Source: Bacteroidota bacterium | GTDB lineage: Bacteria > Bacteroidota > Ignavibacteria > UBA10030 > UBA8401 | Length of the DNA stretch: 43,811 nucleotides | Direction: 5' to 3' | Assembly: GCA_005792285.1 (NCBI GenBank) | Contig: SXSI01000033.1 | Coordinates: forward strand, 1 to 43,811 | In this document: in pieces, positions 31,570 through 34,176 of the stretch | Numbering within the stretch: the stretch's first letter is position 1 | Layout: every line of letters begins with the position of its first letter | The notes under the pieces: model-generated | Seen by the model: the letters and a program-made list of their open reading frames with translations, nothing else | Databases searched by the model: none | What the model was told of the DNA's origin: nothing | Made by a program: the position numbers and the translations under genes

Positions 31570-32016
31570 ATGAGAATTTATTATTTCTTATTTATCCTTT
31601 GCGGATTAATTATCAATTTAAACGGACAAACAAAAAAAATGGAATACAATAAATTATCCGAAGAAGAAAAAAGAGTTATCCTAAATAAAGGAACTGAATA
31701 TCCATTTACAGGGAAATATGACAAGCATTACGAAGAGGGAACTTATGTTTGCAAACAGTGTAATGCAAAATTGTTTATCTCAAAAGATAAATTTAATTCA
31801 GGTTGCGGATGGCCAAGTTTTGATGATGAAATAAAAGGAGCAGTAAAAAAAGTTCCAGATGCCGATGGATCAAGAACAGAAATTCTATGCGCAAAATGTG
31901 GTGGACATTTGGGACATGTTTTTTACGGAGAGGGGTTAACAAATAAGGACACGCGGCATTGTGTAAATTCTGTTTCGTTGAATTTTATTAAAGAAGTAAA
32001 AAAGCAGATTAAATAA
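31570..32016 (+). CDS. msrB: Exported peptide-methionine (R)-S-oxide reductase
   Basis: MsrB reduces R-methionine sulfoxide in damaged proteins. The 148-residue protein has an N-terminal Sec signal ([19 protein letters not shown]), so it works in the periplasm or beyond. The domain begins [19 protein letters not shown]. Zinc is bound by CKQC and [19 protein letters not shown] and the terminal [11 protein letters not shown] carry the catalytic Cys. Only the MsrB domain is present; MsrA is not encoded here. The stop is 4 nt from the convergent argH remnant. Confidence 0.93.
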
Positions 32017-32020
32017 ATAT

Positions 32021-32434
32021 CTATCTCTTCAGCAATTTAACCAAAGCAAGATTTACAGTTTTAAAAGGGAATGAGCTCATGACTTTCGCCATTTGTTTTT
32101 TAATTTCTTTATTGCAAAGATTCCCAATACTACCTTCGTGTGTGCCGAGATGTAATTCCTTTTCTGAACTTGATTTATATTTACCATTTTCAATTTTAAG
32201 TGCAACTTTTTTATACGCATCTCTAAATGGAATTCCGGAATTCATAAGTTTATTAACATTATGCGCAGAGTAGATAAATTTATATTTATCATCGTTTTAA
32301 ATATTTTTAATTATTTTAATTTTGCTGAGCATTAAAGTTGCAATTCTAAGGCAATTATTTAAATCTTCTAATTGTGAGTGGATATCTTCAACATTTGGGT
32401 TAATCGAAAATTTATTATTACTTATTGAGAAGAG
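32021..32434 (-). pseudogene. argH: Argininosuccinate lyase remnant with internal deletion and nonsense codon
   Basis: One frame on the minus strand, read across a single TAA at 32297-32299, matches Bacteroidota-type ArgH at both ends. It starts NPNVEDIHSQLE, the N-terminal ArgH motif, and passes directly into LNNCLRIATLMLSKIKI of the late helical region. After the stop come NDDKYKFIYSAHNVNKLM, SGIPFRDAYKKV and THEGSIGNLCN, the normal C-terminus. Family members have Leu at the stop position, so TTA has become TAA. The catalytic core (GRSRNDQ and the SSxMPxKKNP loop) and the first part of the gene are missing, roughly 230 residues or more at the junction. No working arginine biosynthesis gene is in the window. 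Confidence 0.85.
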
Positions 32435-32443
32435 TTAGTAATT

Positions 32444-32881
32444 TTATTTTTCCGCAATAACAGAAATTTCAATTCGCACACCTCGTGGTAATGCTGCAGC
32501 TTGAATTGTCTCTCTTGCAGGAAATGGTTTATTGCTATCAATAAAATATTTCTGATAAATATCGTTCACTTTGGAAAAATATTTTAAGTCGGACAAATAA
32601 ATAGTTGTCTTCACAATATTTGAGATATCCATTTTAGCTTCGGTAAGTATAGCTTTTATATTCCCTAAAACCCTGACTGTTTCAGATTCGATTGAAGCGG
32701 TATCTAATAAATTAGTAACTGGGTTAATTGCAATTTGTCCGGAAACATATAATCTATCCCCCTTTAAAATCGCCTGACTGTATGGTCCAATTGGTTTTGG
32801 TGCTTTATCTGTAAAAATTGCAGTTTGTGAAAAAATATTACCAACACAGAAGAAAAGTAAAACTAACTGATTAAATTTCAT
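32444..32881 (-). CDS. Exported RidA-family enamine/imine deaminase
   Basis: The 145-residue protein is a RidA domain behind a Sec signal peptide (KFNQLVLLFFCVGNIFSQ). It contains APKPIGPYSQAI, LYVSGQIAINPVTN, and ARETIQAAALPRGVRIEIS with the catalytic Arg and Glu of the active RidA subgroup. It should therefore act outside the cytoplasm on reactive enamines or imines. Its ATG overlaps by one base the stop of a Tat-exported PLP-dependent enzyme, a likely source of such intermediates. The cytosolic paralogue is at 25972-26355. Confidence 0.9.
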   Translation of the reverse strand: MKFNQLVLLFFCVGNIFSQTAIFTDKAPKPIGPYSQAILKGDRLYVSGQIAINPVTNLLDTASIESETVRVLGNIKAILTEAKMDISNIVKTTIYLSDLKYFSKVNDIYQKYFIDSNKPFPARETIQAAALPRGVRIEISVIAEK

Positions 32882-34176
32882 CAGCTCCTGTTTTTAGAAA
32901 TATATTTGATTCCTTCTATTAATCTGTCGAGGTCTGCAAGATTTGTATAAACATGCGGTGTTACTCTTACTCCCTGTGTTCCTTCCCAATTAATTGGAAC
33001 TGTATGAATTTTAAATTTATCCATTAACATTGCTTCAATATCTTCGGGCTTCACTCCTTCAATTGAAAAATTTGAAAGTGCACAGGAATATTTTGGTTTG
33101 AGGGAAATATTTAATTTAAATCCGGGAATTGAAAGTGCTTTTTCGCACCAATAATTTTTTAAATATCGGAGTCGTTCTTCTTTTCTTTTTGTTCCAATTA
33201 CATTATGAAAGTCGAGAGCTTGTCCAATTGCCATTTCACTTGCAAAAGATCTTGTACCAAGTGATTCAAATTTTCTAATATCTGTTCCACTTGGATCAAC
33301 TGAAGAAAGTAACGCCCATACATTTTTTATTTTATCTTTTTTAATATAAAGTAATCCACTTCCAAAAGGTGCAGAAAGCCATTTGTGAAGTGATGTTGCG
33401 GCATAATCGCAATGTGTATCAGGAAAACTAAAATCGATATGTGCAAAAGTATGTGCCGAATCCAAAATAACTTCACATCCATGTTGATGTGCGAGATCTG
33501 CTAATTTTTGAACTGGTAAAAGTTGTCCGGTCCAGTTTATCATATGTGTGAGGTGAACAACTTTTGTTTTCGATGTGATTGCTTTTTTATACTTTTCAAT
33601 AAAATATTCATCTGACTCTTGCGGTAAATCAAAAGTAATCCAGTTTAATTTTATTCCATCTCTTTTTTCACGCTGCTTCCAAGCATTCATCATATTTGGA
33701 TAATCATATTTAGAAAGTAAAACTTCATCTCCAGCTTTTAAATCAAGTCCGAAAATTATTGTATTTAATCCTTCAGTAGAATTTCTGTTGATTGCAATTT
33801 CTTCTGTTGAACAACCTCCAAGTGTAGCAAGTTTTTGTCGGAGAGATTCTCTTCCTTGATCTAAAATTCTCCACATGTAATATGATGGACCTTCGTTGCA
33901 CATTTGGTAATATCTAATGTGAGCATCTTGCACAACTTTTGGTTGCGGACTAACTCCGCCATTATTTAAATTTATTATACTTGGTGAAACTGTAAAGCTT
34001 TCTCTAATCCATCCCCAAAAATCTTCATTTACAATTGACTCTGAAAGTGATTGTTTAGAAATATTATTTACTTGTTCTTCAAATTCTGCAGCAGCAAGTG
34101 GATTCCAAAAATTAGTAAAAGGGAATAATCCTGCTAATGTTGCAGATTTTTGTAAAAAGTTTCGTCGTGATGTCAT
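32881..34176 (-). CDS. Tat-exported class V aminotransferase-fold PLP enzyme
   Basis: The 431-residue protein begins MTSRRNFLQKSATLAGLF, a textbook twin-arginine signal (SRRxFL), so it is exported folded, presumably with its cofactor. The rest is a class V aminotransferase fold similar to isopenicillin-N epimerase and cysteine-desulfurase-like proteins: INLNNGGVSPQP, EIAINRNSTEGLNTIIFGLD, EVILDSAHTFAHIDF and YAATSLHKWLSAPFGSG, in which Lys265 would bind PLP. GGAG-like GGAGC-type SD (GGAG at about 34182-34187) precedes the ATG. It overlaps the exported RidA gene by one base. The substrate is unknown; epimerase, lyase and desulfurase activities are all possible. Confidence 0.87.
   Translation of the reverse strand: MTSRRNFLQKSATLAGLFPFTNFWNPLAAAEFEEQVNNISKQSLSESIVNEDFWGWIRESFTVSPSIINLNNGGVSPQPKVVQDAHIRYYQMCNEGPSYYMWRILDQGRESLRQKLATLGGCSTEEIAINRNSTEGLNTIIFGLDLKAGDEVLLSKYDYPNMMNAWKQREKRDGIKLNWITFDLPQESDEYFIEKYKKAITSKTKVVHLTHMINWTGQLLPVQKLADLAHQHGCEVILDSAHTFAHIDFSFPDTHCDYAATSLHKWLSAPFGSGLLYIKKDKIKNVWALLSSVDPSGTDIRKFESLGTRSFASEMAIGQALDFHNVIGTKRKEERLRYLKNYWCEKALSIPGFKLNISLKPKYSCALSNFSIEGVKPEDIEAMLMDKFKIHTVPINWEGTQGVRVTPHVYTNLADLDRLIEGIKYISKNRS

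Follow-up and report, generated by a model that had tools for sequence, protein, structure and literature searches.

The window analysed here, a 43,811-nucleotide stretch of a Bacteroidota contig, encodes a Tat-exported, PLP-dependent enzyme of the class V fold together with a RidA protein that carries an export leader of its own, and the two very probably (at roughly 0.85) constitute a real functional unit that works outside the cytoplasm. Linkage of the genes, its conservation among relatives, the leaders, the intact catalytic residues and the co-occurrence of both proteins across genomes are direct observations on the pair. Work on RidA has treated it as protection of the cytosol (or of organelles) from 2-aminoacrylate, and we know of no extracytoplasmic RidA system described before. 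Conserved co-export with a PLP enzyme would imply that reactive enamines also arise, and are dealt with, beyond the cytoplasm, in a compartment that presumably lacks cofactor repair.

Organization of the locus

The PLP-enzyme gene and ridA (Table 1) have base 32881 in common, which is both the last base of the first gene's stop codon and the first base of the second gene's start codon. Because this one-base overlap implies translational coupling, it supports the RidA start and hence the leader. Open reading frames and profile matches confirm the original prediction of a class V enzyme with a Tat leader overlapping, by one base, a RidA with a Sec-type leader. The genome also encodes TatC (227.5 bits), and a sister genome (G001) harbors the same pair with an identical overlap. 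The second, cytosolic RidA that had been reported from the window is present as well; it is leaderless and is the only other PF01042 gene in the whole genome, and its presence led us to reject a housekeeping role for the exported copy.

Table 1. Features of the exported pair and its surroundings, in window coordinates.
Feature	Position	Strand	Basis
PLP enzyme gene, 431 aa, Tat leader, class V (fold type I)	32881-34176	minus	ORF and profile matches
ridA gene, 145 aa, Sec-type leader	32444-32881	minus	ORF and profile matches
Tat motif SRRNFLQ, PLP enzyme residues 3-9 (N-terminus MTSRRNFLQ)	34150-34170	minus	Sequence
Asp239 of PLP enzyme, predicted partner of the PLP pyridine nitrogen	33460-33462	minus	121/121 rows; role from fold family
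Lys265 of PLP enzyme, predicted Schiff-base lysine, motif SLHKW	33382-33384	minus	121/121 rows; aligns with SufS GHK
Arg404 of PLP enzyme, predicted substrate-carboxylate arginine	32965-32967	minus	121/121 rows
RidA N-terminus and leader, MKFNQLVLLFFCVGNIFSQ	32825-32881	minus	Hydrophobic window 2.47 and positive N-terminus
Arg123 of RidA, equivalent of catalytic Arg105	32513-32515	minus	181/181 rows; sections of PMC4433059
Glu138 of RidA, equivalent of Glu120	32468-32470	minus	178/181 rows
Leaderless (cytosolic) RidA, 127 aa, other RidA of the genome	25972-26355	plus	ORF and profile matches
argH remnant, 3' of ridA, outside the pair	32183-32389	minus	22.8 bits; one internal stop

The argH remnant directly behind ridA covers argH positions 324-397; the sister genome has no such remnant there and features a stem-loop followed by a T run instead. 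Promoter-like sites are less frequent in the region than in shuffled sequence, and a terminator scan gave no clear candidate 3' of ridA. Adjoining the pair and convergent with it is a further exported repair enzyme, an MsrB with a Sec-type leader (31570-32016, plus strand).

Conservation of the pair

Adjacency in relatives, the check put forward with the original prediction, was found at two scales. A contig scan for relatives of the PLP enzyme kept the best 80 of 119 loci, from Bacteroidota and with 55-87% identity in the PLP enzyme; four of these end less than 400 bases from the PLP gene, and an intact ridA lies directly 3' on the same strand in 21 of the 76 that are testable. In one further locus ridA is broken (L075), and in another it is located 3.9 kb downstream (L064). 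Genomic surroundings vary between loci while the pair stays constant, and two loci with identical flanks differ in ridA itself, which is absent from L052 and present in L054.

The phylum was sampled by an even draw of 392 genomes, and a genome counted as PLP-positive when a search with the L044 protein, a Bacteroidia query, gave E<=1e-90. Ninety-six were positive, including the window's genome and its sister. Eighty of the 94 positives outside the genus were examined for RidA, and ridA adjoins the PLP gene in 12 of them (G219, G121, G141, G233, G415, G303, G292, G411, G137, G350, G167 and G149), representing five families beyond the window's, whose PLP enzymes are about 38-48% identical to the query. 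Four more genomes outside the 80, chosen for two RidA matches each, are also paired (G194, G288, G357 and G481). ridA lies upstream of the PLP gene in G219 and downstream in the other paired genomes of this sample. At both scales, intergenic gaps in the pairs are mostly between -11 and +42 bases. By our own estimate, which assumes one to three RidA genes, one PLP gene and about 3,000 genes per genome, chance adjacency would account for approximately 0.1 genome in 80, against the 12 found. With recurrence in 21/76 loci and 12/80 genomes, we rejected the notion that the pair is an oddity of a single genome.

The RidA partner

The exported RidA scores 120.8 bits against Ribonuc_L-PSP (PF01042; cut-off 27.3) and 150.0 bits against TIGR00004 (cut-off 106.25), which places it in the RidA subfamily; paired RidAs of distant families reach 156-170 bits on the latter model. 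Tyr34, Arg123 and Glu138 are all present, so the Arg and Glu said to be intact are indeed so. Across an alignment of 181 rows, the catalytic Arg is retained in every row, the Tyr (Tyr17 equivalent) in 180 and the Glu in 178, with Gln at the Glu position in two paired and one unpaired exported row; among paired rows the figures are 31/31 for Arg and 29/31 for Glu. Sections of PMC4433059 describe the Arg as essential to imine hydrolysis by RidA and report little effect when Tyr17 or Glu120 of the Salmonella enterica protein is replaced. The imine/enamine deaminase activity of the subfamily is predicted for this protein.

Export leaders were called by a rule based on hydrophobicity, charge and lipobox (a positive N-terminus and a hydrophobic stretch), combined with inspection. 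All 38 distinct paired RidAs have such a leader: 35 could be scored by the rule (32 pass, three miss), three were skipped by the regular expression, and these latter six were called by eye. Some leaders are Sec-type and others contain a lipobox, as expected of lipoproteins, mostly in distant families. Several exported RidAs failed the rule or could not be scored with it, and by-eye counts therefore stand beside rule counts; the rule also flagged two or three cytosolic RidAs through upstream DNA (L151, L161/L216 and L135). As far as leaders can be read from sequence, the conserved trait of the RidA partner is its exported state.

Co-occurrence of the exported proteins

RidA matches at E<=1e-17 were read in the 80 PLP-positive genomes and in 70 PLP-negative ones, the latter term meaning that a single query found no member of this subfamily at E<=1e-90; a profile re-search of six negatives returned weaker class V matches in 6/6 and strong ones in G023 and G197. 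By the strict rule, an exported RidA occurs in 26/80 positives versus 2/70 negatives (Fisher p = 1.3e-6), and with by-eye additions in 38/80 versus 5/70 (p = 2e-8), p values that treat related genomes as if they were independent trials. The association persists after stratification by family (CMH p = 0.007), and families containing an exported RidA number 10 of 24 with the PLP enzyme compared to 1 of 24 without it.

In many genomes, nevertheless, the PLP enzyme occurs with no exported RidA (54/80 by the strict rule, 42/80 with by-eye calls), and for this reason RidA is an accessory rather than an obligate subunit. None was found in the nine PLP-positive genomes of family f27 or the nine of family f42. 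Some exported RidAs are also unlinked to the PLP gene, including in the same genomes.

The exported PLP enzyme

Membership of the class V fold is indicated by 149.5 bits against Aminotran_5 (PF00266; cut-off 21.5). Lys265, His264, Asp239, Arg404 and Tyr159 are invariant in all 121 rows of the PLP alignment; the retention in homologues of Lys265 and the RidA Arg, on which the original prediction had staked itself, is thus complete (121/121 and 181/181). The substrate-carboxylate role of Arg404 we take to be that of its counterpart in class V enzymes. A Tat-type RRxF/L/M/I motif is found in 122 of 143 rows, RK or KR in 18 and neither in three, repeat fetches of some loci included. One paired enzyme (L101:6004-7293) lacks the second Arg of the motif (MNRMEFL), and its RidA keeps a Sec leader.

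Three named families were considered and rejected as identities. PvdN (NF051467) is the top NCBIfam match of the window enzyme, at 143.8 bits against a cut-off of 650, and other members of the exported family score 107-179 bits; the two traits of the PvdN type, a Tat leader and the class V fold, are both found in the window enzyme. The score for SufS-type cysteine desulfurase (TIGR01979) is 142.8 bits against 475.1. EgtE and the hercynylcysteine sulfoxide lyases are class V C-S lyases that give pyruvate and ammonia; the window enzyme shares the class but reaches only 53.2 bits against the EgtE cut-off of 400 (TIGR04343).

An AlphaFold2 model (pLDDT 89.6, from a 55-row alignment) superimposes best on PvdN among solved structures (5i90; Z 47.7, rmsd 1.9 over 374 residues), followed by the cystine C-S lyase C-DES (Z 45.2) and by desulfurases at Z of about 45, where VIA-align rows less than 1 Z apart, such as C-DES and SufS, count as tied. 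Foldseek ranked desulfurases and PvdN together. Judging from this model, the fold alone does not give the enzyme's reaction.

Cultured carriers of the exported family include Larkinella, Telluribacter and Pollutibacter, with no RidA adjoining the PLP gene in the loci read. A plasmid search for relatives gave 138 records, and no RidA is annotated beside the relative in the six neighbourhoods read. Proteobacterial plasmid relatives at 38-40% identity include L385, L386, L388 and L389, and the three that were translated (L385, L386 and L388) are leaderless.

Comparison with known systems

Both halves of the arrangement have precedents, namely Tat-exported PLP enzymes (PvdN and PtaA) and cytosolic RidA-PLP clusters. 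PvdN, a periplasmic enzyme of pyoverdine tailoring in Pseudomonas, resembles the window enzyme in its class V fold, Tat export and periplasmic location and is the best structural match; the two differ in sequence (22% identity), and no pyoverdine setting is seen here. To our knowledge PvdN has no RidA partner. PtaA, likened by description only, is another Tat-exported periplasmic PLP enzyme, a transaminase. As described in sections of PMC6206403, Tat carries PvdN with PLP bound, PvdN is periplasmic and decarboxylates with retention of the amino group, with no enamine release as far as known, and PtaA occurs in species both with and without pyoverdine.

Cytosolic clusters with threonine dehydratase, cysteine desulfurase, cystathionine beta-lyase or tryptophanase likewise position an Arg-type RidA beside a PLP enzyme. 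Sections of PMC4433059 report clustering of RidA genes with sources of 2-aminoacrylate among the PLP enzymes, including class V desulfurases, and propose that RidA hydrolyses enamines or imines in such clusters. These are described without export, unlike the window pair, and the words periplasm, signal peptide and lipoprotein are absent from the main text of that paper. In open-licence PMC literature, surveyed mostly at listing level, we found no description of an exported RidA, alone or with an exported PLP enzyme; one RidA-family protein belongs to a cytoplasmic chitin pathway (PMC9537276, in part).

Desulfurases (SufS/CsdA) and C-DES share fold, PLP-binding residues and the carboxylate Arg with the window enzyme. 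Relative to SufS/CsdA, however, the region of the persulfide-Cys loop reads KIHTVPINWEG, without Cys, and the invariant Tyr159 occupies the alignment place of the PLP-stacking His. Beta-elimination of cystine or cysteine is the reaction of C-DES, to which the modelled fold is as close as to the desulfurases.

Origins

The RidA tree (181 rows, 123 columns, FastTree) is weakly resolved. Most paired RidAs belong to either of two groups, of which the first lies among the housekeeping RidAs of Bacteroidia and the second outside a group of 85 rows with support 95, and the paired label requires seven changes, at least four of them on well-supported branches. This fits recruitment of RidA on more than one occasion, but loss and transfer may also have shaped the pattern. 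Three rows (L131-L133) are labelled cytosolic by the rule, yet their leaders look exported. In the PLP tree (121 rows), the window enzyme lies within an 80-row Bacteroidia clade (support 100) and outside a clade (support 99) of 19 enzymes that come from the family and order of the window's genome. Because the enzyme groups with Bacteroidia rather than its own order, this small (1.7 Mb) genome probably obtained the pair by horizontal transfer.

Another lineage of exported Rid proteins occurs in the window's order. Its members (L252, L284, L288, L298, L299, L301 and L321) are lipoproteins whose spacer is charged (GCGPSEEDLRR...IGPYSPA); they form one clade of the RidA tree and are unlinked to the PLP gene.

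Proposed mechanism and alternatives

We propose that the two genes form an operon serving a single extracytoplasmic step. The PLP enzyme would be folded around its cofactor before leaving the cytoplasm by Tat; RidA would exit by Sec, or elsewhere as a lipoprotein, and fold outside. There, the PLP enzyme may act on an amino acid, or a conjugate of one, by deamination or cleavage, with alpha,beta-elimination the likeliest route, and release a 2-aminoacrylate-like enamine or imine that RidA would hydrolyse to a 2-oxo acid and ammonia, completing the reaction. Hydrolysis would also prevent a dead-end enamine-PLP adduct where PLP is presumably not resupplied; class V enzymes are open to such damage, as the pyruvate/PLP adduct on IscS illustrates (sections of PMC9239102), and as Tat substrates take their PLP along, a damaged cofactor would presumably be lost for good. 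We infer enamine release, elimination and cofactor protection from the partnership and from this literature, that on cytosolic RidA-PLP clusters included, and favor elimination over racemisation because the latter leaves RidA nothing to do. An enamine-releasing lyase or deaminase mechanism is a tentative assignment to which we give slightly less than an even chance; against it stand the amino group retained by PvdN, the nearest structure, and the many PLP-positive genomes that lack an exported RidA. Support at the level of sequence, including a leader on all 38 partners, does extend to the earlier suggestion of an extracytoplasmic PLP reaction with its own damage-control or second-step enzyme, and it fits these two roles equally well.

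The alternatives differ in what RidA would be doing outside the cell. The PLP enzyme could tailor a residue in an exported or cell-surface molecule, in the manner of PvdN or PtaA, by oxidative decarboxylation or transamination, with RidA handling an imine intermediate or by-product. We consider this rather unlikely: PvdN is Tat-exported and periplasmic, and leads both the structural (Z 47.7 versus 45.2) and the NCBIfam matches, but its score remains far below the cut-off, siderophore and NRPS genes are not recurrent among the neighbours examined, and neighbours that vary this widely speak for a step on a small molecule rather than for a cluster dedicated to biosynthesis. More doubtful still is that RidA, without being this enzyme's second step, shields exported PLP enzymes in general, the window enzyme included, from enamines or imines of other extracytoplasmic origin, and that co-transcription serves this protection. 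Tight gene coupling and pairing in two RidA lineages mark the PLP enzyme as the partner, and such protection still requires an extracytoplasmic enamine source, even though unlinked exported RidAs exist in the same genomes and the class V enzyme IscS is, according to sections of PMC9239102, a target rather than net source of 2-aminoacrylate, which forms a pyruvate/PLP adduct on it.

Two further possibilities would sever the pairing from enamine chemistry. A non-imine role for the exported RidA (chaperone-like, nuclease or ligand binding) draws on other activities claimed for the superfamily in sections of PMC4433059 and is quite improbable given that the imine-hydrolysis Arg is kept in all 31 paired rows and the Glu in 29 of them. 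Least credible is that unrelated exported genes travel together by chance; the window lineage does seem to have acquired both by horizontal transfer, but adjacency recurs in five further families and varied settings, once with ridA upstream, and the co-occurrence statistics likewise speak against it.

Returning to enamine release, we see about even odds for its broadest form, in which Bacteroidota run a dedicated extracytoplasmic enamine/imine metabolism and at least two separate RidA lineages have supplied an exported partner to a widespread PLP eliminase or deaminase that leaves by Tat, PLP being unrenewable outside. If true, no earlier example of an extracytoplasmic RidA system is known to us. 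The pair also provides a handle on the reaction of a large exported family annotated merely as "aminotransferase class V-fold PLP-dependent enzyme", since RidA narrows the chemistry to reactions that form enamines or imines.

Gene neighbours

Genes flanking the pair do not indicate a consistent pathway in the neighbourhoods read. What hints there are, weak and inconsistent, suggest amino-acid or peptide catabolism. Beside the proteobacterial relatives are FAD/amino-acid oxidoreductases, an Lrp-type regulator, cysteine dioxygenase, and aspA or ald. In most members of family f34 (L245, L366-L369), the PLP enzyme and a lipoprotein RidA are followed by an M20 peptidase, then a rhodanese-like protein, then an M28 peptidase. 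L044 encodes, a few genes beyond the pair, a leader-bearing protein of the asparaginase family. In L034 (2978-4260), the gene of an M15 D-Ala-D-Ala dipeptidase overlaps ridA by four bases, and PLP enzyme, RidA and dipeptidase are encoded in one operon.
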